NCBI RefSeq assembly: GCF_007197575.1
Contig: NZ_CP041616.1
Location: 1,240,001 to 1,304,000 of the forward strand
Length of the DNA: 64,000 bases
Source: Ornithinimicrobium ciconiae
GTDB taxonomy: Bacteria; Actinomycetota; Actinomycetes; Actinomycetales; Dermatophilaceae
Direction of reading: 5' to 3'
The position numbers and the translations under genes are program-made. The notes beneath the pieces are model-generated. The model saw nothing but the letters and a program-made list of their open reading frames with translations, made no database searches and had not been told where the DNA came from. Positions 9,531-51,796 of this stretch are shown piece after piece. The stretch's first letter is position 1. Every line of letters begins with the position of its first letter.

Positions 9531-10637
9531 ATGAGTTCCCAGATGGACCGCGTTCGCTCTGGGCGTAGCCCGCGCCCGCTGCAGGTAGCCGTCACGCACG
9601 CTCGCTCCGCACTGGGCCAGGCGGTGGCGGAACAGCTCATCCGGGCGGGGGAGCAGGTGACCGGGGTGGACCAACGCTCCGGGACTGCCGGGGGCCTGCG
9701 CCTGCGCTGGCGGCTGACGGATCTGGAGTCCCCGCAGGTGGTCGACGCGCTGCGGGGCATCGAGGCGGTCGTGCACCCGGCCCACGGCGTCGACCTCAGG
9801 AACGAGTTGGCCGAGGACCCGCAGGCACGTCGAGCGAGGATGATCCGGGAGGTGCAGACCCTGACCGTCGCAGCGGCGGCCGCAGGGGTCAGCCATGTTG
9901 TCGTGCTCAGCAGCGCCATGGTGTATGGCGCACGCCAGGACAACCCGGTGCCGCTTGCGGAGGACAGCCCGCTGCGCTCCGCCGACGTCGAGGGGATGAT
10001 CGCCGACCTCGTGGAGGTGGAGGAACTGCTCGACACGGCCCGTCGGGTCCACCCCTCGGTGCGGATCACCTCGGTGCGGCCTGCCGCCATCGTCGGGCCG
10101 GGTGTGGACAGCATCATCACGCGGCACTTCGAGGCACCGCGCATGCTGGTGCTCAAGGGCACTGAGCCACACTGGCAGTTCTGTCACGTCGAGGACCTGG
10201 GGTCGGCCGTGGCCACCGTGCTGCACGACGGTCTCGGCCCCGCCGTCGCGGTGGGAGCCCCGGGGAGCCTGACGCAGGAGCAGGTCGAGCAGCTCTCCGG
10301 GCTGCGGCACGTCTCGGTGGCACCCACAGCCGCCCACGGTGCGGCCGACCGGCTCCACCGGTTGGGCGTGCTGCCACTGCCCCCGACCGACCTGGCCTAT
10401 ATCTCACACCCGTGGGTCATCGAGCCGGTGACGCTGCTCGAGCACGGGTGGCGACCGGCATACGACAATGCGGCATGCCTGGCGACGCTGCTGGAGGAGG
10501 CCCGGACAGGGGCGGGCGCGACCGTCCGCCGTCTGGAGCGCCGGGATGCCGCACTCGGAGCGGCTGGCGCCGCCAGCGCTGCGGTGGCGGTCGTGGCCAC
10601 CGCGGCGCTCCTGCGGCGTCGTCGACGACGGACGTGA
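9531..10637 (+). CDS. NAD-dependent epimerase/dehydratase-like (SDR) protein with C-terminal membrane tail
   Basis: The 368-aa protein reads as an extended SDR: a Rossmann start VAVTHARSALGQAVAEQL where the usual TGxxGxxG glycines are degraded, an active-site-like stretch SSAMVYGARQ (S and Y as in SYK enzymes but without the YxxxK lysine), and TSVRPAAIVGPG typical of extended SDRs. The end is a hydrophobic segment (AAGAASAAVAVVATAALL) followed by a run of six arginines, suggesting a C-terminal membrane anchor. ATG at 9531 has GAGGAG upstream. Degenerate cofactor and catalytic motifs make enzyme activity uncertain. Its stop codon lies inside the first copy of a tandem repeat (10630-10745). Confidence 0.78.
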   Translation: MSSQMDRVRSGRSPRPLQVAVTHARSALGQAVAEQLIRAGEQVTGVDQRSGTAGGLRLRWRLTDLESPQVVDALRGIEAVVHPAHGVDLRNELAEDPQARRARMIREVQTLTVAAAAAGVSHVVVLSSAMVYGARQDNPVPLAEDSPLRSADVEGMIADLVEVEELLDTARRVHPSVRITSVRPAAIVGPGVDSIITRHFEAPRMLVLKGTEPHWQFCHVEDLGSAVATVLHDGLGPAVAVGAPGSLTQEQVEQLSGLRHVSVAPTAAHGAADRLHRLGVLPLPPTDLAYISHPWVIEPVTLLEHGWRPAYDNAACLATLLEEARTGAGATVRRLERRDAALGAAGAASAAVAVVATAALLRRRRRRT

Positions 10638-10745
10638 GCCGGCGGACGTGAGCGGGCAGACCTGAGGGCCGACCTGAGCGCGGCGGACGTGAGCGCGGCG
10701 GACGTGAGCGCGGCGGACCTGAGCGCGGCGGACCTGAGCGCGGTG
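10630..10745. repeat. Tandem 14-15-bp repeat spanning a stop codon
   Basis: About eight copies of a unit around GGAC(G/C)TGAGCGCGGC run from 10630 to 10745. The first copy contains the stop codon (TGA 10635-10637) of the upstream gene. Copies near 10685, 10700, 10715 and 10730 are spaced exactly 15 bp, earlier ones 12-15 bp. The array ends about 50 bp before moaE. Confidence 0.9.
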
Positions 10746-10793
10746 GACGGGGACCCTCAGGGTCTTCTCGGCCCGGTGTTGGATGATGGAGCG

Positions 10794-11228
10794 GTGACAA
10801 CAGACGAGCAGCGGGTGGTCCGAGCGCAGATCGTGGAGTCCGGGCCGTCCCTGGACGAGGTCCTGGACTGGGTCAGGCACCCGGAGGCCGGCGCGGTTTC
10901 CCTCTTCGTGGGCACCGTGCGGGACCACGACGGGGGTCAGAGCGGGGTCGTGCGGCTGGACTACAGCGCCCACCCCGACGCCGAGCAGCACCTGGCGCGG
11001 GTCGCCGAAGAGATCGGGCGCCTGCCGGGGGTCCTGCACGTCGCCGCAGTGCACCGCCAGGGAGAGTTGGCGGTCGGTGACACGGCCGTGGTGTGCGCGG
11101 TGTCCGCAGCGCACCGGGCGGAGGCCTTTGAGGCATGTCGGGCCCTGATCGAGCAGCTGAAGGCCACCGTGCCGATCTGGAAGAAGCAGCTGTTCGAGAC
11201 CGGCTCGACCGAGTGGGTCGGTCTGTGA
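10794..11228 (+). CDS. moaE: Molybdopterin synthase catalytic subunit MoaE
   Basis: MoaE, with thiocarboxylated MoaD, converts cyclic pyranopterin monophosphate to molybdopterin. The 144-aa sequence shows GAVSLFVGTVRDHDGG, the HPDAEQHL region, VAAVHRQGELAVGD and the C-terminal VPIWKKQLFETG, which carries the conserved lysines of the active site. No moaD or other molybdenum-cofactor gene is adjacent. GTG at 10794 is chosen because the longer in-frame extension is translated tandem repeat (SAADVSAADL...) with no homology. The stop overlaps the next gene by 4 bp. Confidence 0.92.
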   Translation: MTTDEQRVVRAQIVESGPSLDEVLDWVRHPEAGAVSLFVGTVRDHDGGQSGVVRLDYSAHPDAEQHLARVAEEIGRLPGVLHVAAVHRQGELAVGDTAVVCAVSAAHRAEAFEACRALIEQLKATVPIWKKQLFETGSTEWVGL

Positions 11229-12352
11229 GTTACTACCGGCGTCCGGCGGATGGGCGACGTGCCGCCCACCCGCCGCACACCCGGATCGGGTGGACCACCG
11301 GGCTGGCCCTGGGGCTGGCGGTCGTGCTCGTGATCGCGATGGCGCTGCTCAACCTCGTCACCGTGGACAAGGTGCTCTATCGCCCAGCAGGGGTCCACGA
11401 CACCCTCGGTGAGATCGATGGCCAGCCGATCGTGAACGTCGAGGGTCTGGAGACCTATGAGACCAGTGGCTCCCTGGACTTCCTAACCATCATCATCGAC
11501 GGCGGGCCACGGTCCGACGTGACGGCCTGGGACTGGCTGCTTGCCGAGCTGGACCCGGCCGTCGACGTCTTCGATGCGGCAGACATCTATCCGCCTGACG
11601 TGACCGCGCAGGAGATCCAGGAGGAGAACGTCCAGCTGATGACCCAGTCGCAGCTCGGGGCCGCGGTGGTCGCGCTGCGCGCGACCGGGATCGAGGTGCC
11701 CGAGGAGGTCAAGGTCGGCCAGATCATTAAGGGTGCTCCGGCCGCTGAGGCTCTTGAGGTCGATGACCAGATCCTGTCGGTGGACGGCACCAAGATCGAC
11801 AACCCGGAGGAGGTGCGTGTCCAGCTGCAGGAGCACGAGCCCGGTGACGCGGTGTCCTTCACGCTGCTGCGCGACGGCGAGGAGATCGAGCTGGACGTTC
11901 CCACGGGGGAGAGCGACCCTGACACGCTCGAGCCGGACGCGCCGCCGCGCACGATCATCGGCGTCTATCTGGCCAGTGACTTCGATCTGCCCTATGAGGT
12001 GACGATCGACGCGGGCAATGTCGGCGGTCCGTCCGCCGGCATGATGTTCTCCCTGGCCATCTACGACAAGATCACCCCCGGACCGCTCACGGGGGGCAAG
12101 CGCTTCGCCGGGACCGGCACGATCAACTCGGACGGCACCGTCGGCGGCATCGGCGGGATCGTGCAGAAGATGTATGCCGCCGAGCGGCAGGGCGTGGACT
12201 ACTTCCTGGCCCCCGCGGCCAACTGTGCCCAGGTCGTCGGGCGGATCCCCGGCGACCTGGAGGTCATCAGGATCGAGAACTTCACCCAGGCGCGGGACAT
12301 CGTGGAGGCACTGGGCGAGGATGAGGACATCACCGTGCCCCGGTGCTCCTGA
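11225..12352 (+). CDS. PDZ-domain, Lon-like serine protease (YlbL family), membrane anchored
   Basis: The 375-aa protein has an N-terminal membrane helix (about 25-46), a PDZ domain (about 158-230, with VKVGQIIKGAPAAEALEVDD) and a C-terminal Lon/S16 peptidase domain. The catalytic Ser is in GGPSAGMMF (about 270) and the Lys in GGIVQKMYAAE (about 313), the usual Ser-Lys dyad. It is predicted to act outside the membrane on envelope proteins. GTG at 11225 overlaps the moaE stop. PDZ-Lon, PPA1309 and UPF0182 genes adjoin in many Actinobacteria, as here. Confidence 0.92.
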   Translation: MSYYRRPADGRRAAHPPHTRIGWTTGLALGLAVVLVIAMALLNLVTVDKVLYRPAGVHDTLGEIDGQPIVNVEGLETYETSGSLDFLTIIIDGGPRSDVTAWDWLLAELDPAVDVFDAADIYPPDVTAQEIQEENVQLMTQSQLGAAVVALRATGIEVPEEVKVGQIIKGAPAAEALEVDDQILSVDGTKIDNPEEVRVQLQEHEPGDAVSFTLLRDGEEIELDVPTGESDPDTLEPDAPPRTIIGVYLASDFDLPYEVTIDAGNVGGPSAGMMFSLAIYDKITPGPLTGGKRFAGTGTINSDGTVGGIGGIVQKMYAAERQGVDYFLAPAANCAQVVGRIPGDLEVIRIENFTQARDIVEALGEDEDITVPRCS

Positions 12353-12420
12353 CCCACTTCAGGAGGCGCCTCCCGGTTCAGGGGCCCGAGTCGCGCCTGC
12401 GCAGGTGGCGCCCCGGAGCC

Positions 12421-12505
12421 TGCTCAGGCGGACAGCGTGGCACCCGAGCCGCTCAGGTGGACAGGCGTGGCGCCCCTGAGCCGCTCAGGTGGACAGCGTG
12501 GCGCG
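12421..12505. repeat. Tandem ~31-bp repeat spanning the PPA1309 stop codon
   Basis: Read on the minus strand, three copies of GCCACGCTGTCCACCTGAGC (with small changes) recur every 30-31 bp from 12505 down to 12421. The first copy contains the final codons and TGA of the PPA1309 gene; the two others are in the intergenic space toward 12352. Confidence 0.88.
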
Positions 12506-13003
12506 CAGCGCCTCGACCAGCCCGGGGGCGATGTCCTTGCCGATCGCGACGGCATCGTCACTGTCGTGCTCGCGCTGGCGCAACAGGCACACCGACTCGC
12601 CGCTGCGCAGGACGGCCGCGACCAGGCGCACATCCTTGCGCGTCGGGTGGGCTGCCAGCGCCTCGGTCGCTGCGGTCGGACTGAGGGGGAGGTCGCGCTC
12701 GGCCTCCGGGGGCACGACGATCCGCTCCAGCGCGATCGCGACGCCGTCCACGGCCTCGGGCCAGCCCAGCGTGCCGAGCAGGGACTCGATGTTGGAGGTC
12801 TTGCGCAGCCCCTCCTGCTCGATCGAGGTCAATCCGTCCGCCGGAGCCTGTTCCAACTCTGCGCGCAGCGTTGGCTCGGCCTCCATCAAGGAGTCTGTGC
12901 GGACCAGGGCAAACAGCCTGGGCGCCTGGTCCCATCCGAGCCTGGCGACGTGGCGCTCCGTGTCGGCGGCAGCCTTGGTGAGGATCTCTGTCATGTCGGG
13001 CAC
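12485..13003 (-). CDS. PPA1309 family protein (conserved actinobacterial hypothetical)
   Basis: The 172-aa sequence matches the PPA1309 family: the early segment HVARLGWDQAPRLFALVRTD, then SIEQEGL, the central LGWPEAVDGVAIALERIVVP, and the RLVAAVLRSGESVCLLRQRE strand. No membrane segments or catalytic motifs are visible. The family is found beside UPF0182 and PDZ-Lon genes in Actinobacteria, as here, but its function is unknown. Its last codons and stop are part of a tandem repeat (12421-12505). Confidence 0.9.
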   Translation of the reverse strand: MPDMTEILTKAAADTERHVARLGWDQAPRLFALVRTDSLMEAEPTLRAELEQAPADGLTSIEQEGLRKTSNIESLLGTLGWPEAVDGVAIALERIVVPPEAERDLPLSPTAATEALAAHPTRKDVRLVAAVLRSGESVCLLRQREHDSDDAVAIGKDIAPGLVEALRATLST

Positions 13004-13167
13004 CCGGCCATGGTGCCACCTCGCGTCGCCCTCCCGGCAGTGCGGGTTGTCTCGTCCAGGTCACGGATTGTGACCTGAAAGCCGTTCTGCCGGGGTCGCT
13101 GGGTTAGCGTTGGGGAAACACAAACCAGGCCAGGCCGGGCCGACCGGCCATGAGGAAGCGGGTAGCA

Positions 13168-16100
13168 GTGACTGAGCGTGACGGGACGACTCCGGAGGAG
13201 CCGGACAACGACTCGGCCAAGGCGCCCAAGGACCCCTGGGACCGGGCGGCGGCGGACCCCTTCGGGTTCGGCGGGCGCGAGGAGGGCCCCCGAGAGCCAG
13301 CAGCGGGAGCGGGCGGCGGTGCCGGCGCAGGCCGACGCCCCGGAGTCGGTGGACGGGGACGCTTCCTGCCGACGGTCCTGATCCTGCTCGGTGTCCTCAT
13401 AGCGCTGACCTGGCTCGCCCAGCTGTGGACCGAGTTCCTCTGGTATGACTCGGTCGGCTTCCGCACCGTGCTCACCACTCGACTGCTCACCCAGGTCGTG
13501 CTCTTCCTGGGGGCCGGGATCGTCACGGGCCTGCTCGTGTGGAGCTCGCTGCACCTGGCCTATCGCAACCGTCCGATCTATGCCCCGAGCAGTCCCGAGC
13601 AGATCAACCTGGACCGCTACCGCGCGGCGCTGGATCCTGTCCGTCGCCTGGTCTTCATCGGCGCCCCGGTCCTGCTCGGCCTGTTTGCCGGGTCGGCGAT
13701 GGCTGCCCAGTGGCAGACCCTGCTGCTCTGGCTCAACCGCCAGCCGTTCGGCGTGCAGGACCCGCAGTTCAAGATCGACGTTGGCTTCTTCGTCTTCACG
13801 GTGCCCTGGCTGAACGTGCTGATCAGTTTTGCCACCCTCACCCTGGGTCTGGCCCTCATCGCTGCAGCGATGACGCACTACATCTATGGCGGGCTACAGC
13901 TGCAGGGTCCGGGGGAGCGCACCACCCGTGCCGCTCGCATCCACCTGGCGGTCCTGGCCGCACTGCTGGTGGGCGTGCGCGCCCTCGCCTACTGGATCGA
14001 GCGCTACTCCCTGGCCACCGCCAAACACGAGCTCATCACGGGTATGACGTACACGGACGTCAACGCCGTCCTCCCGACCCGTGGGGTGCTGGCCATCGCG
14101 GCCCTGCTCTGCGCCATCCTCTTCCTGTCCACCATCTGGACCCGCACCTGGCGTCTGCCGCTGATCGGCCTCGCCGGCCTCGTGGTCATCGCGCTCCTGG
14201 TCGGTGGCGCCTATCCCGCACTCATCCAGAACCTGCGGGTGAAGCCGTCGGAGGCGCAGCTGGAGGAGCCCTACATCCAGCGCAACATCGAGTCGACACT
14301 GGACGCGTACGGTCTGACCGACACCAAGATCACCGACTATGACGCCGTCACCGAGGCGACCCCGGGACAGCTGCGCGAGGACGCAGCCACGATCCCCGGC
14401 ATCCGCATCGTCGACCCAGCCATCGTGTCCGACACCTTCCGCCAGCTGCAGGGTGTCCGCAACTACTACCAGTTCCCGGACGCTCTGGACGTCGACCGCT
14501 ATGACGTCGACGGTGAGACCGTGGACACCGTGGTCGCGGTCCGCGAACTACGCCTCGACGGCATCCCCGCGGCCCAGCGCAACTGGGTCAACGACCACAC
14601 GGTCTATACCCACGGTTTCGGTCTGGTCGCCGCCTACGGCAACCAGCGCACCAAGGACGGCGAGCCGATCTTCTACCACCGGAACATCCCACCGGTCGGT
14701 GAGCTGGGCGACTTCGAGCCGCGGGTCTACTTCGGTGAGCACTCGCCGTCATACTCGATCGTCGGCGCCCCCGACGGGGCGACGCCCCGCGAGCTCGACT
14801 ATCCCGACAGCCTCGCCGACGCCGGTGAGACCCGAAACACCTACGCCGGCGGTGGTGGTGTCGCCATGGGGTCCTTCCCGCGCCAGCTGGCTTACGCGAT
14901 CAAGTACCGCCAGGTCGAGATCCTGCTGTCTGACAGCGTGGGTCCGGAGTCCCGGATGCTGGATCACCGCGAGCCGCGCGAGCGGGTCGAGCGGGTGGCT
15001 CCCTGGCTTCGCCTGGACGGCAACCCCTACCCGGCGGTCGTTGACGGTCGCATCACCTGGATCGTGGACGGCTACACCGTGTCCGCCAACTACCCCTACA
15101 GCAAGCTCGAGCAGCTTGGCGAGGCGACCACCGACTCGCTCGTGACGACCTCGCAGAACGTGCGCTCGATCGGTCAGGGCGACATCAACTACATCCGCAA
15201 CTCGGTCAAGGCCACGGTTGACGCCTACACCGGAGAGGTCGTTCTCTATGCCTGGGACGAGGAGGACCCGCTGCTCAAGGCCTGGTCCTCCGCGTTCGAC
15301 AACACGGTGCAGCCGCTGTCGGAGATCGACGCCGAGCTGATGGGACACCTGCGCTATCCGGAGGACCTGTTCAAGGTCCAGCGGGAGGTGCTGACGCGTT
15401 ACCACGTGAACACGGCTGAAGCCTTCTTCGGCGGCCAGGACTTCTGGGAGGTCGCGGCCGACGAGAGTGCCCCCGGTGACACCGATGTGGCGATGCCGCC
15501 CTACTACCTGAGCATCGCGATGCCGGGCCAGGAGGAGCCAACCTTCTCGCTGACGAGCACCTATATCCCAGGCGGTGACCGGCAGAACCTTGTGGGCTAT
15601 CTGGCGGTGGACGCCGACGCCGGCGAGACGGCGGGCGAGAAACGTGAGGGCTACGGACAGATGCGGCTGCTGGAGCTGCCGCGCGAGTCCACGGTGACCG
15701 GTCCGGGCCAGTTCCAGAACGAGATCGAGTCCTCCAACGCCAACTCCGAGGCGTTCACCCAGACCCTGTCGCAGTTCCTGACGCTGAACCGGCAGGCCGG
15801 CTCGGTGGTGCAGATCGGCAACCTGCTGACCCTGCCGGTCGGTGGCGGACTCCTGTATGTGGAGCCGGTCTATGTGCGGGCGGCGGGGAGCTCCTCCTAT
15901 CCGCTCCAGCGCCTGGTCGTGGTCTCCTTCGGCAACGAACTGGCCTGGTCCGACACCCTCGACGGTGCCCTGGACGAGCTCTTCGGTGGAGACTCCGGAG
16001 CCACCGCGGCCGACGAGGGCACCGGCACCGAGGAGCCAGTTGATCCCGTGGTGCCGCCCACCGACGGTGGTGAGGACCCCACCGCTGAGCCGACGACGCC

Positions 16101-16317
16101 GCCGAGCGGGGACCTCGCCGACGCGGTGGCCGACATCCAGGCGGCCTATGACGATGGCCAGGAGGCGCTGCGCAACGGTGACTGGGAGGCCTACGCCGAG
16201 GCGCAAACCCGCTTGGACGAGGCGATCTCGCGGGCGATCGAGCTGTCACCCGAGGGCGGCTCGGTGAGCGTGGAGCCGACTCCGACGGACGACAGCGAGG
16301 CGACCGCAACCCCCTGA
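13168..16317 (+). CDS. UPF0182 family large membrane protein
   Basis: The 1049-aa protein has a charged N-terminus rich in Gly/Pro/Arg, seven or so hydrophobic helices within the first ~360 residues (for example FLPTVLILLGVLIALTWLA), then a large extracytoplasmic domain and an acidic Thr/Pro/Glu tail. Length and layout match UPF0182 (the Rv3193c group), a conserved actinobacterial membrane family of unknown function. GTG at 13168 is chosen because GAGGAAG precedes it; ATG at 13150 is an in-frame alternative. A hairpin terminator follows at 16343-16373. Confidence 0.93.
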   Translation: MTERDGTTPEEPDNDSAKAPKDPWDRAAADPFGFGGREEGPREPAAGAGGGAGAGRRPGVGGRGRFLPTVLILLGVLIALTWLAQLWTEFLWYDSVGFRTVLTTRLLTQVVLFLGAGIVTGLLVWSSLHLAYRNRPIYAPSSPEQINLDRYRAALDPVRRLVFIGAPVLLGLFAGSAMAAQWQTLLLWLNRQPFGVQDPQFKIDVGFFVFTVPWLNVLISFATLTLGLALIAAAMTHYIYGGLQLQGPGERTTRAARIHLAVLAALLVGVRALAYWIERYSLATAKHELITGMTYTDVNAVLPTRGVLAIAALLCAILFLSTIWTRTWRLPLIGLAGLVVIALLVGGAYPALIQNLRVKPSEAQLEEPYIQRNIESTLDAYGLTDTKITDYDAVTEATPGQLREDAATIPGIRIVDPAIVSDTFRQLQGVRNYYQFPDALDVDRYDVDGETVDTVVAVRELRLDGIPAAQRNWVNDHTVYTHGFGLVAAYGNQRTKDGEPIFYHRNIPPVGELGDFEPRVYFGEHSPSYSIVGAPDGATPRELDYPDSLADAGETRNTYAGGGGVAMGSFPRQLAYAIKYRQVEILLSDSVGPESRMLDHREPRERVERVAPWLRLDGNPYPAVVDGRITWIVDGYTVSANYPYSKLEQLGEATTDSLVTTSQNVRSIGQGDINYIRNSVKATVDAYTGEVVLYAWDEEDPLLKAWSSAFDNTVQPLSEIDAELMGHLRYPEDLFKVQREVLTRYHVNTAEAFFGGQDFWEVAADESAPGDTDVAMPPYYLSIAMPGQEEPTFSLTSTYIPGGDRQNLVGYLAVDADAGETAGEKREGYGQMRLLELPRESTVTGPGQFQNEIESSNANSEAFTQTLSQFLTLNRQAGSVVQIGNLLTLPVGGGLLYVEPVYVRAAGSSSYPLQRLVVVSFGNELAWSDTLDGALDELFGGDSGATAADEGTGTEEPVDPVVPPTDGGEDPTAEPTTPPSGDLADAVADIQAAYDDGQEALRNGDWEAYAEAQTRLDEAISRAIELSPEGGSVSVEPTPTDDSEATATP

Positions 16318-16342
16318 CGGGCAGGGTTTAGAGCCAACCCAG

Positions 16343-16373
16343 ATCCGCCGACCGCTTCGTGCGGTCGGCGGAT
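16343..16373 (+). terminator. Terminator of the UPF0182 gene
   Basis: ATCCGCCGACCGC (16343-16355) pairs perfectly with GCGGTCGGCGGAT (16361-16373) around a TTCGT loop and is followed by TTGGTT. It lies 26 bp after the UPF0182 stop and before the tRNA gene. Confidence 0.85.
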
Positions 16374-16414
16374 TTGGTTGGGCCTGCAGGGGTGACGTAT
16401 GCTGGATGAACCGA

Positions 16415-16488
16415 CGCGGGGTGGAGCAGCTCGGTAGCTCGCCGGGCTCATAACCCGGAGGTCGCAGGTTCAAATCCTGCCCCCGCTA
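16415..16488 (+). tRNA. Initiator tRNA-fMet (CAU)
   Basis: The 74-nt sequence folds as a cloverleaf: acceptor 5' strand CGCGGGG, D-arm, anticodon stem with the initiator-specific three G-C pairs (GGG ... CCC) around loop CTCATAA, T-arm GCAGG-TTCAAAT-CCTGC and acceptor 3' strand CCCCGC. Position 1 (C) faces T at position 72, an unpaired end that marks initiator tRNAs. CCA is not encoded. A 14-bp hairpin follows at once. Confidence 0.96.
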
Positions 16489-16500
16489 CTCAGTAGCGAA

Positions 16501-16532
16501 CGAAGGCCCCCAGAGAGATCTGGGGGCCTTCG
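16501..16532 (+). terminator. Terminator after tRNA-fMet
   Basis: CGAAGGCCCCCAGA (16501-16514) and its exact complement (16519-16532) enclose a GAGA loop, 12 bp after the tRNA. The stem is strong; the downstream U-tract is poor. Confidence 0.75.
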
Positions 16533-16666
16533 CTGTGTCCTGGGGCTTCGTTCCCGTCCTGTGGGCAGGACCTGCCTGGGAAGCAGCACCTGCCTCTAGG
16601 TCGGCGCCGGATGTGGTGAGCGTGGGGCAGATCACGACACTCAGGGGCAGCAGCACGGCATACTCG

Positions 16667-16692
16667 TGGTGAGGTCGCTGTTGACCTCACCA
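16667..16692 (+). promoter_or_regulatory. 10-bp inverted repeat abutting the ndh ribosome-binding site
   Basis: TGGTGAGGTC (16667-16676) and GACCTCACCA (16683-16692) form a perfect dyad with a 6-bp spacer, touching the AGAGGAGGA ribosome-binding site of ndh. It could be a protein operator or an RNA hairpin acting on translation. No named regulator is assigned. Confidence 0.55.
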
Positions 16693-16705
16693 GAGGAGGA
16701 ACTCC

Positions 16706-18082: not shown

Positions 18083-18175
18083 GTCCCTGGTCCGGCTGCT
18101 GTGTCCGTCGGTTCGGCAGGGCAGCCTGGGTCGTCCGGTTCGGTGCCTGACCGGAACGTGTTTACAGTGGCCAGC

Positions 18176-22425: not shown

Positions 22426-22498
22426 TTCAACCACGCTAGTGCCCTGGGGTGCGAAGTCGGTGGAGCCCGTGCCGACGCTCTCCAAGTCGGCGGGCAGG

Positions 22499-22590
22499 CC
22501 TACGAAACTTCTCTAGAAATGCGTGGGAGGCCTACGAAACCCCTCCAAGAATGCGTGGGAGACCTACGAAACCTCTCTCAAAATGGTTTA
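22499..22590 (-). repeat. Three tandem copies of a 32-bp repeat after rsgA
   Basis: Three copies start at 22499, 22531 and 22563, period exactly 32 bp. On the minus strand the core of each is (A/G)GTTTCGTAGG preceded by GCATT-like sequence. The copy nearest rsgA contains its TAA stop (22588-22590). A related two-copy array with the same period lies at 48853-48906. Confidence 0.9.
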
Positions 22591-23591
22591 GGAGTCGCTG
22601 GTCCTGCTGCGGAGCAACCGACGCAGGGACTCCAGGCGGGCCGCGCCGGAGGGGCCGGCGTGTCCGGCGGCGACCCAGGCGTCCAGGGCGCACTCCTCCT
22701 CGTCATGGCTGCACCCGCGCGGGCACTTCGCAGCTCCCTGCGCCAGGTCGGGAAAGTGCTCGATGAAGGTGCTGGGGTCCACGTGCCCCAGACCGAAGGA
22801 GCGCACGCCCGGGGTGTCCACCACCCAGCCGCCCCCCGGCACCTCGAGAGCCACGGCACTGGTGGAGGTGTGCCGACCACGGCCGGTCACCACGTTGACC
22901 CCTCCGGTGGCCCGGTGGGCATCCGGCACCAGCGCGTTGACCAGCGTCGACTTTCCGACCCCCGAGTGGCCGACAAAGACGCTCACCTTGCCGAGCAGGT
23001 GCTCGAGCACCTCCTCGACGCCAGCACCCAGCCCGGTGTCCGGGTCGAGGGAGGTGACGACAGCGGGCACGTTGAGGGGTGCGTAGATCCCCAGGAGGTG
23101 GTCGGGCGAGGCGAGGTCGGACTTGGTCAGCACCAGTAGCGGGGTGAGCCCGGCGTCATAGGCGGCGACCAGGCAGCGGTCGATCATCCGTGGGCGGGGC
23201 TCGGGGTTGGTCAGCGCCGTGACGATCACCATCTGGTCGGCGTTGGCCACGATCACCCGCTCCACGCGGTCGCTGTCGTCTGCGGAGCGGCGCAGCACGG
23301 AGGAGCGCGGGAGAACCCTGACGATGCGCGCCAGTGCATCCGGTCCGCCGGAGGTGTCGCCGACCAGGCCGACGTGGTCGCCGACCACGATGCTCTTGCG
23401 GCCCAGCTCTCGAGCGCGCATGGCGGTGGCCGATCGCTCATCCAGGCGGACGGTGTAGCGCCCTCGGTCCACGCCGATGACGAGACCCTCCACCGCGTCG
23501 TCGTGCGCGGGTCGTTCTTTGGTGCGCGGTCGGCTGCCGCGCCGGGAGGGGCGGACCCGGACAGCCGACTCGTCGAGGTGGTCGTAACGAC

Positions 23592-23595
<4 letters not shown>
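22588..23595 (-). CDS. rsgA: Ribosome small-subunit maturation GTPase RsgA
   Basis: RsgA helps late 30S assembly. The 335-aa protein has an OB-fold N-terminus and the circularly permuted GTPase order typical of the family: G4 LTKSDL first, then G1 GHSGVGKSTLVN (about 208-219), the G2/switch region with TGGVNVVTGRGRHTS and G3 VDTPGVRSFG. A C-terminal zinc knuckle (CPRGCSHDEEEC) follows. The GTG start overlaps the aroA stop by 4 bp, giving an aroA-rsgA transcription unit with hisN downstream after a 162-bp spacer containing 32-bp repeats. Confidence 0.95.
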
Positions 23596-24983
<1,388 letters not shown>

Positions 24984-40782: not shown

Positions 40783-40787
40783 CAGTG

Positions 40788-40896: not shown

Positions 40897-41193
40897 GTGT
40901 CGGTTTCCATCAAGCCGCTCGAAGACCGGATCGTCATCAAGGCCCTCGAGGCCGAGCAGACCACCGCCTCTGGCCTGGTCATCCCGGACACTGCCAAGGA
41001 GAAGCCCCAGGAGGGCGAGGTCCTGGCCGTCGGTCCGGGCCGTTTCAACGACAACGGCGGCGAGCGCATCCCGCTCGACATCGCCGTGGGTGACCGCGTC
41101 ATCTACAGCAAGTACGGCGGCACCGAGATCAAGCACGGCGGCCAGGAGTACCTCATCCTGTCCGCGCGTGACGTGCTGGCCGTCGTCGGCTGA
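40897..41193 (+). CDS. groES: Co-chaperonin GroES
   Basis: GroES caps the GroEL folding chamber. The 98-aa protein starts [20 protein letters not shown] and contains the mobile-loop [22 protein letters not shown] and the final [14 protein letters not shown], all standard. GTG start with GAAGGGAAGG upstream. It is controlled by two CIRCE elements. The final codons and stop are included in a 76-bp-period duplication that extends into the groES-groEL spacer. Confidence 0.97.
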
Positions 41194-41320
41194 CAGCCCG
41201 GTGAGGACACGAGCTTGCGAGGCCCGGAACCGGGGCGCGGAAGCCGATTGTGTTCTCCTCGTCGGCTGACAGCCCGGTGAGGACACGAGCTTGCGAGGCC
41301 CGGAACCGGGGCGCGGAAGC
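41184..41320. repeat. Direct repeat (61 bp, period 76) covering the groES stop
   Basis: Bases 41184-41244 recur without change at 41260-41320. Each copy contains the last codon of groES (GGC), TGA and a small hairpin (CCCGG-AA-CCGGG). A third fragment (ATCGGCTGAC) is at 41333. The whole lies in the 239-bp groES-groEL spacer. Confidence 0.95.
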
Positions 41321-41405
41321 TGACTGTGTCTGTATCGGCTGACTAAGCCGCCACGCCCCGGGGCCCCGTGCAGTGCACAGGGGTCGCCGGGGTGTTGTGC
41401 TCTAA

Positions 41406-43037: not shown

Positions 43038-43052
43038 CCCACGGCACACGCA

Positions 43053-43490: not shown

Positions 43491-43623
43491 TGAGGCACAT
43501 CCTGTGCCTGGTCGTGTGCTTCTGAGTTAGCCGTATGTCAGTTGCCCTGGTGCGGTGTGGTTCGTCGATCGAGTGAACTGTAACCCTAGTCCTGCAAGAA
43601 GTAGTCAAATCGTTACCCATTGA

Positions 43624-45247
<1,624 letters not shown>

Positions 45248-45250
<3 letters not shown>

Positions 45251-46036
45251 GCCGAACTGCCAGGACCGCTTCGACAGGCCATACCAGAAGCCGTCCACGG
45301 CCACCTCGTTGTCGAGCCCGCCGCTGGCGTCGGCCACCCCGAGGGTGACATAGAGCGGGGCCCAGTGCTCGGTGCGCGGATGCGCCTCGTGCGCCCCGGG
45401 TGCCTGCGTCGCAAAGTCCAGCACCGCGTCGACGTCGTGGCGGGCCAGCGCCTCGGCCGCCCAGTGGTCGAACTCCGCCGACACCTGGGGCGGAGCAGCA
45501 TCGGCCGGATTGCGCGGGTTGAACCACTTCAGGTTGTGCGTGGTGAAGCCCGACCCCACGATGAGGGTGCCCTGGTCCCGCAGCGGCGCCAGCTTGCGAC
45601 CGATCTCGAAGAGCTCGTGCGGGTCGAGGGTGGGCATCGACATCTGTAGCACCGGAATGTCCGCGTCGGGGAACATCTCGACCAGCGGCACGTAGGCTCC
45701 GTGGTCCAGCCCGCGGCCCTCGTCGCGGTGGACAGAGTCGCCGATGATCGTGCTCACCTCGTTCGCCAGGTCAGGGGCGACCGGCGCGGCATACTCCACC
45801 TCGAAGTATTTCTGCGGAAAGCCCCAGAAGTCGTAGAGGAGCGGGACCCGCTCCTGGCTCGCGCTGACCGTCAGCGGCGCCGACTCCCAGTGCGCCGAGA
45901 CCATCAGGATGTTGCGGGGTCGGGGGAGCTGGTCGGACCAGGCGCGCAGTTGAGCTGTCCAGGTCTCGTCGTCGGCCAGCGGCGGGGCGCCGTGGCTCAG
46001 ATACAGCACGGGCTGGCGATCGGTGGTCTGCCGCAC
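45248..46036 (-). CDS. DODA-type extradiol ring-cleavage dioxygenase (LigB family)
   Basis: The 262-aa protein matches the class III extradiol dioxygenase DODA group (YgiD-like): zinc/iron ligands in YLSHGAPPL (His about 15) and SAHWESAP (His about 47), GLDHGAYVPLVEMFP and TEHWAPLYVTLG. The E. coli member YgiD acts on catechol-type rings such as L-DOPA; the substrate here is not known. GTG at 46036 is chosen because GGAGG lies six bases upstream. The stop lies in the duplicated 3' end of guaB. Confidence 0.88.
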
Positions 46037-46140
46037 GGTGGTCCTCCAGAGTGTCCAGTCCACGTGGTCAAGGATTCAATTTCCAGTATGCCGGGTGGCG
46101 GCTGTCCCGGCACCTCGCCGGTTGCTTGTAGCCTGACCGC

Positions 46141-47262
46141 GTGAATGAGATCGAGATCGGCCGTGGCAAGCGCGGGCGGCGCGCCTACTCCTTTGAGGAC
46201 ATCGCGGTGGTGCCGTCCCGACGCACCCGGGACCCCGAGGACGTGTCGATCAGCTGGCAGATCGATGCCTACCACTTCGAGCTGCCGGTCATCGCGGCAC
46301 CGATGGACTCGGTCGTCTCCCCGCAGACCGCCATCATGATGGGACAGCTGGGCGGGCTCGGCGTGCTCGACCTCGAGGGCCTGTGGACCCGCTACGACGA
46401 CCCCACCGAGCACCTGGCGGAGATCGCCGAGCTGGACGCCTCGGCGAGCATCCCCCGGCTGCGCGAGCTCTATGCCGCTCCGATCCGTCCGGAGCTGATC
46501 ACCCAACGGCTCCGGGAGATCCGGGAGGCCGGGGTGACGGTCGCCGGCTCCCTGTCGCCGCAGCGGACCCAGCAGTTCTGGCGCACCGTGGTCGACGCGG
46601 GGGTCGACCTGTTCGTGATCCGCGGCACCACCGTCTCCGCCGAGCACGTCTCGAGCAGCGCGGAGCCGCTCAACCTCAAGCGCTTCATCTATGAGCTCGA
46701 CGTCCCGGTCATCGTCGGCGGAGCGGGCACCTACACGGCCGCACTGCACCTGATGCGCACCGGAGCAGCCGGTGTCCTCGTCGGGTTCGGCGGCGGTGCG
46801 ACCCACACCACCCGCACCACGCTCGGCATCCACGCGCCGATGGCCACCGCCATCGCCGACGTGGCGGCTGCCCGCCGGGACTACCTGGACGAGTCGGGTG
46901 GTCGCTATGTCCACGTCATCGCTGACGGTGGGGCGGGGCAGTCGGGCGACATCGTCAAGGCGGTGGCCTGCGGCGCCGATGCGGTCATGGTCGGGGCCGC
47001 CCTGGCCCGGGCCTCCGAGGCGCCCGGTCGTGGGTTCCACTGGGGCTCGGAGGCGCACCATCCGTTCCTGCCGCGCGGAGAGCGCGTCCAGGTCGGCACG
47101 GTCGGCAGCCTGCAGGAGATCCTCACCGGGCCGGGACGCGACGCCTCCGGCACCACCAACCTGATGGGCGCGCTGCGCCGGGCGATGGCCACCACCGGCT
47201 ACACCGACGTCAAGGAGTTCCAGCGCGTCGAGGTGGTCGTCGCGCCCTACACGCGCCACTGA
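46141..47262 (+). CDS. guaB3: GuaB3-family IMP dehydrogenase-like protein
   Basis: The 373-aa protein starts NEIEIGRGKRGRRAYSFEDI, the GuaB3 signature, and has the IMPDH barrel motifs VIAAPMDSVVSPQT, VIVGGAGTYTAAL and ADGGAGQSGDIVKAVACGAD. It lacks CBS domains, like other GuaB3 proteins. In place of the canonical catalytic-loop Cys (GxICTTR) it reads FGGGATHTTRTTLGI; the Cys is absent at this place. Family members have been reported with or without IMPDH activity, so I would not assign the reaction with certainty. GTG at 46141 is used. It is 77 bp after the divergent dioxygenase start; the gene end carries stop-spanning repeats. Confidence 0.92.
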   Translation: MNEIEIGRGKRGRRAYSFEDIAVVPSRRTRDPEDVSISWQIDAYHFELPVIAAPMDSVVSPQTAIMMGQLGGLGVLDLEGLWTRYDDPTEHLAEIAELDASASIPRLRELYAAPIRPELITQRLREIREAGVTVAGSLSPQRTQQFWRTVVDAGVDLFVIRGTTVSAEHVSSSAEPLNLKRFIYELDVPVIVGGAGTYTAALHLMRTGAAGVLVGFGGGATHTTRTTLGIHAPMATAIADVAAARRDYLDESGGRYVHVIADGGAGQSGDIVKAVACGADAVMVGAALARASEAPGRGFHWGSEAHHPFLPRGERVQVGTVGSLQEILTGPGRDASGTTNLMGALRRAMATTGYTDVKEFQRVEVVVAPYTRH

Positions 47263-47295
47263 TCCACACGCCACCGATCCACGCGCCATTGGGTG
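47251..47295. repeat. 15-bp tandem repeat spanning the guaB3 stop
   Basis: ACGCGCCACTGATCC (47251-47265, containing the TGA of guaB3), ACACGCCACCGATCC (47266-47280) and ACGCGCCATTGGGTG (47281-47295) run in tandem with period 15. Confidence 0.9.
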
Positions 47296-47366
47296 CAGAT
47301 GCACTGTGGCCGCCCTGCCGGTGGTGAGAAAGATTGTGTCCAGATGCACCGTGGCCGCCAGGAGAG
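47291..47366. repeat. Direct repeat CAGATGCAC(T/C)GTGGCCGCC downstream of guaB3
   Basis: The 20-bp sequence CAGATGCACTGTGGCCGCCC at 47296 recurs at 47341 with two differences, period 45, in the 235-bp space between guaB3 and the lipoprotein gene. Confidence 0.75.
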
Positions 47367-47497
47367 TTGTCCGGGGGGCGTCTGGCGCGCGCCTGGCCGG
47401 TAGCGGGCGCCGATCCGCTTACCCTTGAGGGGTCGTCGAGTCAGGGAACTCTGGGGTGTGCGAGCAGCGCGCGCCGGAGTGGTCGGAGGAGCAGAGC

Positions 47498-48847
47498 ATG
47501 CACGTGCGCAGTGAAGCCAAGTTCAAGCGTCGCCGGGCGATCGTCGCAGGAGCGCTGGCTGTAGTGCTGGCGGGATCACTCACCGCGTGCCTGACCACCG
47601 GTGACGACGACGCCGACAACACCCCTGCGGCTCAGACCGGCACCGCCGGGGATGACGCAGCGACCACCAGCGGCGGTGCGGCGGAGGGCTTCAAGAACGC
47701 CACGGGCGGTGGCAAAGGCGCCGACTCTGATCCTGGCTCCGACGCGGACTCTGAGTCTGCGACTGCGCCAGACGACGCGGAGGTCAGCGAGGCACCCGTG
47801 GCCGGGCCACCTCCGATTCCCTCCGCAGAGTCCTATATGGAGCGGGTCGACTACATCACCGGCGGCATCACCCCGAAGTCCGTGGTGGCCTCCAACGCGG
47901 GTCTGGTCATCGCCAACAACATGATGTACAGCCACACCTCGACGGTCTACGACGCTGAGTCGCGCGAGTTGGTCAAGACCCTCTCGGACGAGGTCGTCCC
48001 GAGCGAGCTGGGCGTCGAGGGGCACCCCGGGACGGCCAAGGGCTCCCCGGTCGAGGCGGCCTGGACCGACGACGGCAAGTACGCCTACGTCTCGCAGTAC
48101 ACGATGTATGGCGAGAGCTTCGGCAAGGAGGGCTTCGACGCGTGCACCCCGGCCGACGGCGTCGGACCGTCCCTGCTCTACCGCTTCAACGCCGAGACGA
48201 TGGACTGGGACCAAGCCATCGAGGTCGGCGCGGTCCCGAAGTATGTTGACATCACCCCCGACCAGAAGACGATCCTGGTCAGCAACTGGTGCGACTCGAC
48301 CATCTCGGTCGTGGACGTCGAGACCGCCCAGGAGGTCAAGACCATCCCGATCGCGGCCGCGCCGCGGGGGATCGAGGTGCTCCCGGACAACCGCACGGCA
48401 TACGTCGCGGCGATGTATGCCGACAAGCTGTTCAAGGTTGACCTGGAGACCGGCGAGTCCGAGGTGATGATGGAGACCGGCCGCAAGCCGCGTCACCTCA
48501 ACCTCTCTGCGGACGGCAAGTACCTCTTCATGGCCGTCTCGGGCAACGACACGATTTACAAGATCGACACCGAGACCGAGGAGATCGTCGACCAGGTGGA
48601 GTCGGGCCGGGAGCCCCGCTCGATGATCCTGTCCTCGGACGGCACCGCGCTCTATGTCGTGAACTACTACGAGCCCTCCGTCGCCAAGATCAGCACCGAG
48701 GACATGGAGGTGCTGCAGAAGGAGCCGACCGACGCCAACCCGATCGGCATCACCTATGAGCCGGTCACCCACACGGTCTGGGTCGCCTGCTACGGCGGGT
48801 CGATCTACGTCTTCGACGACACCCTCGCGAGCGACCCCGACGCCTGA
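47498..48847 (+). CDS. Beta-propeller (YVTN-type) lipoprotein
   Basis: The 449-aa protein has a lipoprotein signal (RRRAIVAGALAVVLAGSL, lipobox LTAC with Cys about 28), an acidic Gly/Asp/Ser-rich linker to about residue 115, and then repeats of the YVTN/propeller type: VDITPDQKTILVSNWCDST, NRTAYVAAMYADKLFKVDLE and GKYLFMAVSGNDTIYKIDTE, giving a predicted seven-bladed propeller. It should be an extracytoplasmic binding or scaffolding protein. ATG at 47498 has GGAGGAG upstream. No substrate is suggested by neighbours. Confidence 0.88.
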   Translation: MHVRSEAKFKRRRAIVAGALAVVLAGSLTACLTTGDDDADNTPAAQTGTAGDDAATTSGGAAEGFKNATGGGKGADSDPGSDADSESATAPDDAEVSEAPVAGPPPIPSAESYMERVDYITGGITPKSVVASNAGLVIANNMMYSHTSTVYDAESRELVKTLSDEVVPSELGVEGHPGTAKGSPVEAAWTDDGKYAYVSQYTMYGESFGKEGFDACTPADGVGPSLLYRFNAETMDWDQAIEVGAVPKYVDITPDQKTILVSNWCDSTISVVDVETAQEVKTIPIAAAPRGIEVLPDNRTAYVAAMYADKLFKVDLETGESEVMMETGRKPRHLNLSADGKYLFMAVSGNDTIYKIDTETEEIVDQVESGREPRSMILSSDGTALYVVNYYEPSVAKISTEDMEVLQKEPTDANPIGITYEPVTHTVWVACYGGSIYVFDDTLASDPDA

Positions 48848-48852
48848 CCCCA

Positions 48853-48906
48853 ATTTTGAGAGTGGTTTCGTCGGCGGTTAACGCATTTTTGTCGTGGTTT
48901 CGTCTG
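48853..48906 (+). repeat. Two copies of a 32-bp-period repeat after the beta-propeller gene
   Basis: ATTTTGAGAGTGGTTTCGTC (48853-48872) and GCATTTTTGTCGTGGTTTCG (48883-48902) put the shared GGTTTCGTC exactly 32 bp apart, starting 5 bp after the stop. They match the array after rsgA (22499-22590) in sequence, period and orientation relative to the upstream gene. Confidence 0.85.
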
Positions 48907-48997
48907 TCACGGACGCTGTCACCCCGCATTCTCGTAGTGGCCTTGGGAGTCGACCCTCGCTGACGGTCGTGCAGGGGAGGTCACCTACCCTGGGAGG

Positions 48998-49807
48998 GTG
49001 TTGCGCACCCTGTTCACCCCACGTTGGCTCACGCTGCTCGGCGTCGTCGTCGCCATCTGTGTGGCCTTCGTGTGGCTGGGGCTGTGGCAGCTGGCCGTGG
49101 CGCAGGACTCGGCGATCGCCGAGCTGCAGGCCGAGCGCGACGCGCTCGTCGAAAAGCCGCTGGACCAGGTGATGGAGCCGCATGCGCCCTTCCCCGCCGA
49201 CGGCGCCGGTCACCCTGTGGTCGTGGAGGGGGAGTATGACGGCACGCGCCAGTTCCTGGTCCCCGACCGCATCCTGGGGCAGGAGAGCGGGCTGTGGGTG
49301 GTCACCCCCCTGGTGACCGGGAACGGCGCGGAGGTGATCCCGGTGCTGCGCGGCTTCGTCACGGACCCGGCCGACGCCGACCTGCCCCCCAGCACGCCGG
49401 TGACCGTGCGCGGCGAGCTCGCCCCGGGGGAGTCGCCCTACTTTGGCGAGGAGGAACTGCCCGCGGGCCAGCACGGCACGATCGACCTGTCGGTGCTGGC
49501 CAACGAGTGGCCGGAGTCGCTCTACAACGGGTTCATCTTCAGCACCGCCGAGGAGCCTGCCCTGAGCTCTGCGGACCTGCAGCACGTCCCGCCCCCAACG
49601 CTGCAGGCCGGCGACATCGACTGGCGCAACCTCGGCTACGCCCTGCAGTGGTGGGTGTTCGCCGCCTTTGCGGTCTTCATGTATCTCAAGCTGCTGCACG
49701 ACGCGGCCCGGCACCGGGAGGTCAGCGGAGGACGCTCAGGGTCTGGGCCTACAGTGAGCAGCGCCCCCGCACCCGCCGACGAGAGGATCGAGCCCCACCA
49801 TGTCTGA
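48998..49807 (+). CDS. SURF1 family protein
   Basis: SURF1 proteins help assemble the heme a site of cytochrome c oxidase. The 269-aa protein has the two flanking membrane helices expected: TLLGVVVAICVAFVWLGLWQLA near the N-terminus and YALQWWVFAAFAVFMYLKLL near the C-terminus, with the soluble part between carrying VEGEYDGTRQFLVPDR and LWVVTPLV...PVLRGFV. A Ser/Pro/Ala-rich C-terminal tail follows. The GTG start at 48998 has GGGAGG directly before it. It overlaps the DUF3817 gene by 8 bp. Confidence 0.9.
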   Translation: MLRTLFTPRWLTLLGVVVAICVAFVWLGLWQLAVAQDSAIAELQAERDALVEKPLDQVMEPHAPFPADGAGHPVVVEGEYDGTRQFLVPDRILGQESGLWVVTPLVTGNGAEVIPVLRGFVTDPADADLPPSTPVTVRGELAPGESPYFGEEELPAGQHGTIDLSVLANEWPESLYNGFIFSTAEEPALSSADLQHVPPPTLQAGDIDWRNLGYALQWWVFAAFAVFMYLKLLHDAARHREVSGGRSGSGPTVSSAPAPADERIEPHHV

Positions 49808-50132
49808 CCGCGCCAAGCTGAAGTTCTTCCAGGTGATGGCGTTCGTCGTCGGTGTCGCGCTGCTGGTCCTGACGACGCACATGGTGCTGCGCTACGGCTT
49901 CCAGAACCACGCCCTCGACTGGTGGGCGATGCCGCACGGCTTCCTCTACATGATCTATCTGGTGTCCGTCGCCCTGCTCGGCTTCGCGCTGCGCTGGGAG
50001 ATCGGACCCATGGTGCTCGTCATGCTGGCCGGGTGCGTGCCCTTCCTGTCCTTCTGGGTCGAGCACCGGGTCACCCGGATGGCACGGGCCCAGATCGAGG
50101 CCAGGGAGAGCGGAGCCGGGGTGCGGGTCTGA
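49800..50132 (+). CDS. DUF3817 membrane protein
   Basis: The 110-aa protein has three hydrophobic helices and the DUF3817 pattern: FQVMAFVVGVALLVLTTHM, then WAMPHGFLYMIYLVSVALLGF (with the conserved HG) and MLAGCVPFLSFWVEHRV. The family is common in Actinobacteria as a short three-helix membrane protein of unknown function, often next to SURF1 or guaA as here. Start overlaps the SURF1 end. Confidence 0.92.
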   Translation: MSDRAKLKFFQVMAFVVGVALLVLTTHMVLRYGFQNHALDWWAMPHGFLYMIYLVSVALLGFALRWEIGPMVLVMLAGCVPFLSFWVEHRVTRMARAQIEARESGAGVRV

Positions 50133-50185
50133 CCGAACCCAGCCCTCCGGCATACGGAAGGGCCGCAGGCAGATAACCTGTCCCG

Positions 50186-51763
50186 GTGACCGACGCCCTC
50201 CAGCAGCGCCCTGTCCTCGTCGTCGACTTCGGCGCGCAGTATGCCCAGCTCATCGCCCGACGGGTCCGCGAGGCTTCCGTCTACAGCGAGATCGTGCCGC
50301 ACGACATGCCGGCCGAGGAGGTGCTCGCCAAGAACCCCGCGGCCCTGATCCTCTCCGGTGGACCCTCGTCGGTGTATGCCGAGGGGGCGCCGTCGCTGGA
50401 CGCCGACCTGCTGACGGCGGGGGTGCCGGTCCTGGGCATCTGCTACGGCTTCCAGGCGATGGCCAGCGCGCTCGGTGGGACGGTGGAGAAGACAGGGCTG
50501 CGGGAGTTTGGCGAGACCAAGGCCCGGATCTCCGACACCTCCAGCACCCTCTTCGACGGTCAGCCGGATGAGCAGCCGGTGTGGATGAGCCACGGGGACT
50601 CCGTCTCCGAGGCCCCCGAGGGGATGCGGGTGACCGCGACGACACCGGGGGCGGAGGTGGCGGCCTTTGAGGACGACGAGGCCCGCCGCTACGGCGTGCA
50701 GTGGCACCCCGAGGTCCTGCACTCCACCTTCGGCCAGCGCGTGCTGGAGAACTTCCTGGTCCGGGGGGCCGGCCTGGAGCAGACCTGGACCAGCGAGAAC
50801 GTCGTGGAGGACCTGGTCACCTCGATCCGCGAGGAGGTCGGGGACGCCCGGGTCATCTGCGGGCTGTCCGGGGGTGTCGACTCCTCGGTGGCCGCAGCCC
50901 TGGTGCAGCGCGCTGTGGGGGACCAGCTCACCTGCGTCTTCGTCGACCACGGTCTGCTGCGTGAGGGAGAGGCCGAGCAGGTCGAGCAGGACTTCGTCGC
51001 GGCGACCGGCGTGGACCTGCTCGTCGTCGACGCCCAGCAGCGTTTCCTCGACGCGCTCGCGGGAGTGACCGACCCCGAGACCAAGCGCAAGATCATCGGC
51101 CGTGAGTTCATCCGGGTCTTCGAGCAGGCCGCCCGGGACGTGGTCGGCCACGCCGACGCCGAGGGCCACCCGGTCAAGTTCCTGGTGCAGGGCACGCTCT
51201 ATCCCGACGTCGTGGAGTCCGGCGGAGGCAGCGGTGCGGCCAACATCAAGAGCCACCACAACGTGGGCGGGCTGCCGGACGACCTGCAGTTCAGCCTCAT
51301 CGAGCCGCTGCGCACGCTCTTCAAGGACGAGGTGCGCCAGGTCGGCCTCGAGCTGGAGGTCCCAGAGGCCATCGTGTGGCGCCAGCCGTTCCCCGGGCCG
51401 GGCCTGGGCATCCGGATCATCGGTGCCGTCGACGCCGAGCGTCTGGCCATCCTGCGGCGGGCTGACGCCATCGCCCGCGAGGAGCTCACCAAGGCCGGCC
51501 TGGACCGCGACATCTGGCAGTGCCCCGTGGTCCTGCTCGCCGACGTACGCTCGGTGGGCGTGCAGGGCGACGGACGCACCTATGGGCACCCGGTCGTGCT
51601 GCGTCCGGTCAGCAGTGAGGACGCCATGACCGCCGACTGGAGCCGGGTGCCCTATGACGTGCTCGCCAAGGTGTCCAGCCGGATCACCAACGAGGTCGAG
51701 GAGGTCAACCGGGTGGTGCTCGACGTGACGAGCAAGCCGCCGGGGACCATCGAGTGGGAGTGA
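50186..51763 (+). CDS. guaA: GMP synthase (glutamine-hydrolysing) GuaA
   Basis: GuaA converts XMP to GMP with glutamine and ATP. The 525-aa protein has the class I amidotransferase domain (nucleophile Cys in GICYGFQAM, about 86, and HPEV), then the PP-loop ATP pyrophosphatase motif [14 protein letters not shown] (about 228-241), [15 protein letters not shown] and the C-terminal dimer domain ending [14 protein letters not shown] start. It completes the guanine branch with guaB and guaB3. Its last codons and stop are duplicated (51755-51796). Confidence 0.97.
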
Positions 51764-51796
51764 GCCGACGGGTGTTGGGAGTGAGCCGGCGGGTGT
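51755..51796. repeat. 21-bp tandem duplication at the guaA stop
   Basis: TGGGAGTGAGCCGACGGGTG (51755-) and TGGGAGTGAGCCGGCGGGTG (51776-) form a tandem pair with one mismatch and 21-bp period, each containing TGAGCC. The first TGA is the guaA stop. Confidence 0.9.

Follow-up and report, generated by a model that had tools for sequence, protein, structure and literature searches.

Tandem arrays at stop codons in Ornithinimicrobium ciconiae: apparently private 3'-flank duplications, a MIRU-like element and a stop-phased 32-bp repeat

In a stretch of 64,000 bp from the genome of Ornithinimicrobium ciconiae (bases 1240001-1304000 of a single-contig genome of 4,092,907 bp, hereafter the window), six short tandem arrays lie across the stop codons of an epimerase/SDR-like gene, a PPA1309-family gene, groES, guaB, guaB3 and guaA. 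These six arrays derive from no fewer than two sources, and we consider it very likely that repeats at stop codons of this species stem from three sources altogether: duplications in 3' flanks that are private to the species, a MIRU-like element sitting on stop codons (element A), and a family of 32-bp units phased behind stop codons (element B). According to this explanation, five of the six arrays would be recent, species-specific tandem duplications in 3' flanks, most likely generated by replication slippage. A duplication over a stop would be tolerated because the in-gene copy and its stop are left intact, and duplications over starts would be removed. The sixth, at groES, would consist of two copies, in tandem, of the MIRU-like element A, an insertion of about 75 bp. 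Stop codons in this genus thereby appear as a recurrent anchor for small repeats.

All six arrays, which had already been pointed out in a preliminary description of the window, were detected by Tandem Repeats Finder (TRF), each covering the stop codon of a called open reading frame (ORF; Table 1). As a control, 20 dinucleotide shuffles of the window were scored by TRF, which yielded top scores of at most 67 (mean 55.6) and 1.35 arrays per shuffle with a score of at least 50 and a period of at least 10. Five of the six window arrays outscore every shuffle; the guaB3 array (score 64) falls inside the shuffle range and is borderline when taken alone. A seventh, weaker array proposed near 57425 did not reappear, as TRF reported nothing there even at a score of 30. 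NCBIfam matches identify the PPA1309 family, GroES, IMP dehydrogenase (guaB), GuaB3 and GMP synthase (guaA), and the gene earlier labelled SDR has a Pfam Epimerase match only. Assembly errors, named in the preliminary description as a possible cause, are an exceedingly improbable explanation for which no supporting evidence was found: the genome is a single contig of 99.99% completeness, the six arrays are short (39-147 bp), and the rise of array coverage behind stops described below is the same in three related genomes.

Table 1 Tandem arrays and repeat elements in the window (positions counted from its first base)
Feature	Position	Strand	Remarks
Apparently private array, 15 bp x 8.4	10629..10749	+	TRF score 158; crosses stop 10635-10637 of epimerase/SDR-like gene 9657-10637
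Apparently private array, 32 bp x 3.2	12405..12504	-	TRF score 143; crosses stop 12485-12487 of PPA1309-family gene 12485-13003
groES array, 76 bp x 1.9, 97% match	41183-41329	+	TRF score 280; groES stop 41191-41193
Element A copy 1	41184..41249	+	Potential hairpin; 5' arm = last groES codons and T of stop 41191-41193; core 41203-41224
Element A copy 2	41260..41325	+	76 bp downstream of copy 1; core 41279-41300
Apparently private array, 20 bp x 2.4	45210..45258	+	TRF score 84; crosses guaB stop 45229-45231
Apparently private array, 15 bp x 2.6	47250..47288	+	TRF score 64; crosses guaB3 stop 47260-47262
Apparently private array, 21 bp x 2.0	51755..51796	+	TRF score 77; crosses guaA stop 51761-51763
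Element B array, three 32-bp units	22496..22590	-	Starts at stop 22588-22590 of RsgA-like gene 22588-23595 (NCBIfam/Pfam)
Diverged (weaker) element B array	48848..48903	+	Directly behind stop 48845-48847 of beta-propeller gene 47498-48847

The placement of arrays was assessed in a sample of 40 segments of this genome, each 20 kb long, which together with the window comprises 864 kb and 786 genes, 58 of them in the window, as called by a hexamer-based custom script. Among the 188 arrays in this sample with a score of at least 50 and a period of at least 10, 101 lie within genes, 22 over a stop, one over a start, one over both and 63 in intergenic or edge positions, while random placement of the non-coding arrays would give 16.6 over stops, 17.2 over starts and 8.9 over both. 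Without the window, 16 arrays cross a stop (15.0 expected) and one crosses both a stop and a start (7.9 expected). Arrays thus avoid starts, and stop crossing is near random expectation. Arrays cover 3% of the final 15 bases of genes and 9% of the positions just past the stop. Coverage reaches its maximum of 17% not on the stop itself but 45-75 nt beyond it, and it stays below 1% within 15 nt of starts. Per kb, 2.38 arrays are found in convergent gaps, 0.93 in co-directional and 0.34 in divergent ones. The rise past stops was also seen in three related genomes (G009, G014 and G024; genomes are designated here by G and loci by L) and was absent in G034, which has just six arrays outside genes.

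Whether a stop is crossed was evaluated against a sliding null, in which each array is slid within its own gap and may cross stops but not starts; it was applied to the window, the own-genome sample without it, G009, G014 and G024, with family-B arrays removed from the own genome only. Pooled without the window, 37 of 133 arrays cross a stop, compared with 55.1 expected (own sample 16/59 vs 24.8, G009 9/35 vs 13.1, G014 10/26 vs 12.9, G024 2/13 vs 4.4). Stop crossing is hence not favoured in general, whereas the 3' flank is. The shared position stressed in the preliminary description is therefore non-random insofar as arrays abound in 3' flanks and hardly occur at starts, but a preference for the stop itself is not supported. 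The same description had suggested back-up stops, which finds no echo in the repeat periods: multiples of 3 make up 15 of the 37 stop-crossing periods outside the window (own genome 6/16, G009 3/9, G014 6/10, G024 0/2) and three of six inside, close to the one in three of chance, with G014 alone at 6/10. Since stop crossing lies below the sliding expectation and the periods near chance, the private arrays look tolerated rather than selected as back-up stops.

For the five arrays other than groES, the window array was compared by TRF and BLAST with the first 160 nt past the orthologous stop codon of relatives, each species being represented by one genome; groES of G003 and a truncated guaB of G023 were left out. 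None of the 48 orthologous flanks is similar by BLAST to the corresponding array (SDR 0/4, PPA1309 0/4, guaB 0/14, guaB3 0/14, guaA 0/12; the guaB stop of G002 was placed beyond the usual end of the gene). In sequence, the five arrays thus look private to this species. The ends of the encoded proteins are recognisably conserved in most relatives shown, and the in-gene copy is therefore taken as the old one, with the duplication pointing outward. A single repeat family behind all six arrays was rejected, as all-against-all BLAST of the 87 arrays outside coding sequences in the 864-kb sample linked only nine arrays of family B and one other pair; nine arrays thus belong with B, the groES array with A and the other 77 with neither, and the SDR array (10629..10749) has no link to any other array of the sample. 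Bacterial loci with a variable number of tandem repeats (VNTR), or minisatellites, are short tandem arrays, and the five private arrays resemble them as ordinary short arrays, differing only in their place next to stops. They present a clean case in which duplication would be tolerated in 3' flanks and not at starts.

A competing explanation is that stop-crossing duplications are selected gene by gene, as back-up stops or 3' structures. We regard it as improbable given the shortfall of stop crossing outside the window, the near-chance share of periods that are multiples of 3, and the lack of a match in the 48 orthologous flanks, by which the array sequence is not maintained in the long term. 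Nevertheless, several observations speak for selection and against simple tolerance. In the window, all six testable arrays cross their stop, compared with 3.5 expected under the sliding null (P 0.009), and a local stop preference may exist there; the window is, however, an array-rich stretch chosen after the fact, with arrays over six of its 56 called stops as against 16 of 698 in the sampled rest of the genome (Fisher P 0.004). Moreover, different arrays recur behind the orthologous PPA1309 stop in three of four relatives (none over the stop, all further downstream), behind that of guaB in one of 14 and behind that of guaB3 in two of 14, where the array of G027 does cross the stop. Such recurrence fits a duplication-prone flank as well as selection, and families A and B, for which the notion of the stop codon as a special site does hold, demonstrate that a stop can be a specific site. 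Neutrality and slippage we infer from one genome per species, and all gene calls come from the custom script. As an observation in its own right, the PPA1309 3' flanks of G014 and G018 (L123 and L124) carry different 14-bp arrays, so that arrays arise there repeatedly, each with a sequence of its own.

At groES, the array is made up of a dispersed element of about 75 bp, termed element A, which has a near-invariant core and is present there twice in tandem. The earlier statement that the arrays are not one repeat family thus applies to most of them, which are unrelated, but it missed two points: the groES array is part of a dispersed family, and the window also contains a further family, B. 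The groES unit recurs in the genome, with its 22-nt core exact at six places, and the core is found with up to three mismatches in 10 of 31 genomes of the genus. Among GTDB species genomes, exact-core matches occur in Ornithinimicrobium, in metagenome-assembled genomes titled Actinomycetales and Acidobacteria (two), and in one Flexivirga. A collection of 43 copies at 34 loci was assembled, several of these loci being orthologous to one another. At 33 of the 34 loci, a gene on the same strand ends 2-17 nt before the core, the distance being 14 nt at 18 loci, 9 nt at ten, 17 nt at three, and 10 nt and 2 nt at one each. The 34th is a match in a viral contig (L148); a phage source of element A was rejected, as this is the single match of its kind and has no called gene at the core, and the locus was dropped from the pairing count. 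At the orthologous groES stop, element A matches are present in G014, G018 and G023; G006 and G016 gave 12-base matches only, and the remaining nine of 14 relatives none.

In its layout, element A comprises an outer stem, an internal loop with the motifs GACA and GCGGA, and an inner stem around the core, with the last bases of the host gene forming part of the outer stem. Most copies could therefore form a hairpin with the end of the host gene as one arm. Pairing was counted in 37 of the 43 copies, the six without both loop motifs being dropped. In these 37, 87.5% of outer-arm positions are paired, compared with 58.8% when arms are re-dealt among copies (maximum of 2000 re-deals 75%; 26 distinct arm pairs), and the inner stem pairs at 89.5% compared with 67.3% (maximum 79.8%; 19 distinct arm pairs). 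The arms thus covary, and the mean folding z-score is -2.44 (42 copies). Some results count against this structure or limit it. RNAalifold returned a weak consensus for an automatic alignment (-3.83 kcal/mol, seven pairs), which is attributed to a one-base offset between two classes of element A; the covariation rests on an anchored pairing that requires the loop motifs; core conservation is partly built in, as copies were collected by the core; and a profile search of the sequence gathered for this analysis gave three distinct matches without the exact core next to 25 with it. Against Rfam, element A gave three matches at E 0.068-0.57, all far below the gathering score, at which the window as a whole yields one tRNA only.

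Element A is found inserted at stop/start overlaps within operons for which relatives provide the matching empty site. At the nuoD-nuoE junction, G000, G018 and G019 are empty and G009 and G014 occupied, G009 having an insertion of 74 bp in the ATGA overlap compared with the empty junction. At a second junction, between a NuoC-like gene and a nuoH-type gene, G000 and G019 are empty, G009 carries one copy, G014 and G018 carry two, and G023 carries one together with a nested insert; this comparison of occupied and empty junctions was read on plus-strand loci only. Among 22 junction loci, an ORF in frame with the core exists at 20, and an overlap of 4 or 1 nt with the following start is seen at 16. 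As exceptions, three frames run on in frame into the next gene (PyrC at L003), and L136, L157 and L165 show no overlap by gene calls. Element A would hence insert at the stop/start overlap of operon junctions, supplying an open frame and, in many cases, a ribosome-binding-like sequence. Eleven further loci, including groES and ftsY, have no ATGA/GTGA overlap; at eight of these, the core (frame EDTSLRGP) lies in zero frame 9 nt behind a UGA, which is not evidence of read-through. Tandem copies spaced 74-78 bp apart occur at groES, ftsY and other loci.

MIRUs (mycobacterial interspersed repetitive units), which serve as mycobacterial typing markers, form tandem copies of about 50-100 bp. Element A resembles them in its tandem copies and clean insertions, and in part also in its frame, which shares 4 or 1 nt with the next start at 16 of 22 junction sites; it differs by a covarying hairpin using the end of the host gene as one arm and by its second class at gene ends without start overlap, such as groES and ftsY. 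In the excerpt of PMC12548453 on which the comparison draws, MIRUs are portrayed as short, mobile-looking elements at gene junctions, bearing an ORF that is coupled to the gene by a -4 nt spacing; the likeness was drawn from such description. By this analogy, element A qualifies as a new, MIRU-like family, and a literature search found no description of either element A or element B.

A few copies of element A deserve mention. In G014, a diverged copy without the exact core (L192, 19698-19749) also lies at a stop. At L151 and L168, tandem copies 75 bp apart keep one frame, resulting in a fused 50-codon ORF of two repeats. A single relative of element A outside Ornithinimicrobium, in Flexivirga endophytica (L131), keeps the EDTSLRGP frame, although one loop motif is missing from its outer hairpin, and upstream of the nuoH-type gene in G023 (L230), a further insert with GGGGGTACC...GGGGGC is situated inside the conserved loop.

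Element B constitutes the third family, an array of 32-bp units in which, read with the gene, the stop is followed by CCCATTTTnGAGnGGTTTCGTAGG, repeated every 32 bp. BLAST located it at no fewer than 46 places in the own genome (40 of 75 candidates were scored). At 40 distinct sites in the own genome sequence, a gene ends on the left at 28. A gene end lies no more than 80 nt away at 27 sites; among these, the first GGTTTCG-like motif begins 13-16 nt behind the stop at 20 (14 nt at 13; P 3e-13 against uniform phase) and at 3, 4, 4, 4, 9, 21 and 78 nt at the other seven. Thirty B loci had been chosen by their resemblance to B, so the share of genes carrying B is not readable from them. In an unbiased count over 439 free-flank stops (sample and window), 19 of 21 motif matches fall at 11-14 or 42-46 nt, with the motif start taken one or two bases earlier than for the 27 sites; upstream of 489 starts, six matches were found. 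This phasing on the stop is the surprising part of the present results. Furthermore, 11 of 15 intergenic sites of the sample lie in convergent gaps. The picture is not uniform, though: at 13 of the 40 sites, no called gene ends in the 80 nt upstream, and two of 18 sample sites fall in called genes. Helical phasing as the source of the 32-bp peak in the period distribution of all arrays was rejected, as nine of the 12 arrays with period 32 belong to family B.

Concerning its distribution, the exact B pattern occurs in three of 31 genomes of the genus and one of 396 of the order. A profile found diverged B in G009 and G014, with a called gene end shortly upstream of nine of 14 matches. Since G009 lacked the exact pattern, such negatives are no proof of absence, and a confinement of B to three genomes was dropped. 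Element B was not found behind the orthologous stop of the gene ending at 48847 in G007, G009, G014 and G018, nor behind that of the gene ending at 22588 in G007, G012 and G018. Where the upstream gene of a relative's site has an ortholog in the own genome, B is present in both species at three of five sites; two of those three own loci had been chosen by B similarity, hence the unbiased count is one of three.

REP/BIME sequences of enterobacteria are dispersed repeats at the ends of genes, where many are arranged in tandem and lie between convergent genes, and REPs are palindromic. Element B shares the dispersal at gene ends, the frequent tandem arrangement and the convergent setting, but in contrast to REPs it shows no excess folding (27 arrays, mean z -0.24 sense and 0.02 antisense) and usually keeps a fixed distance from the stop. 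The lack of excess folding led to the rejection of a hairpin terminator, and a search against Rfam gave no match at E <= 1. The TAACTGA direct repeats of Beggiatoaceae, as portrayed in the excerpt of PMC4679880, are 7-nt units most of which lie just upstream of start codons, whereas B consists of 32-nt units behind stops.

The spacing of B suggests either a 3'-end signal or site-specific insertion at stops, and a 3'-end signal and a site-specific selfish insertion are given similar weight here. As a functional 3'-end element, B might be a protein-bound terminator or an mRNA 3'-end signal, located immediately past the point where the ribosome terminates. This possibility, which we hold tentatively, draws on the 13-16 nt spacing at 20 of 27 sites, the enrichment in convergent gaps, the 32-bp period and the gene ends upstream of the diverged copies in G009 and G014. 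It is opposed by the sites without a called gene end, by the presence of B in both species at just one of three ortholog-bearing sites in the unbiased own sample, by the missing excess folding in the case of a hairpin terminator, and by the fact that no trans factor was identified. Alternatively, A and B could both be purely selfish and use stops as safe harbours. Arm copying by quasi-palindrome repair is a mechanism by which the arms of A could become matched to the host gene without selection, and the matching does follow the host gene's end. Clean insertions, lineage-restricted spread and the tandem copies of A also agree with selfish elements, while the stop spacing kept by B, the cases in which two species carry it at the same stop, and the frame of A ending on the next start at 16 of 22 junction sites do not; a purely selfish nature thus likewise ranks as conceivable, short of probable. 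More far-reaching, and in our estimate rather unlikely, is a reading of B as a lineage-specific array phased on translation termination, where a putative protein would act on mRNA 3' ends or convergent transcription and the sequence changes as the place is kept, with A as a second stop-codon system, namely a hairpin built on the host gene's end and a zero-frame EDTSLRGP open to read-through. Together, A and B offer a testable system for how short elements might spread between the genes of operons without breaking them, and perhaps also for a signal at 3' ends.

Strong tandem arrays are also present inside called genes of the window (346-486, 24064-24117 and 62397-62449). Their periods are multiples of 3, which is likewise true for most in-gene arrays of the own-genome sample.

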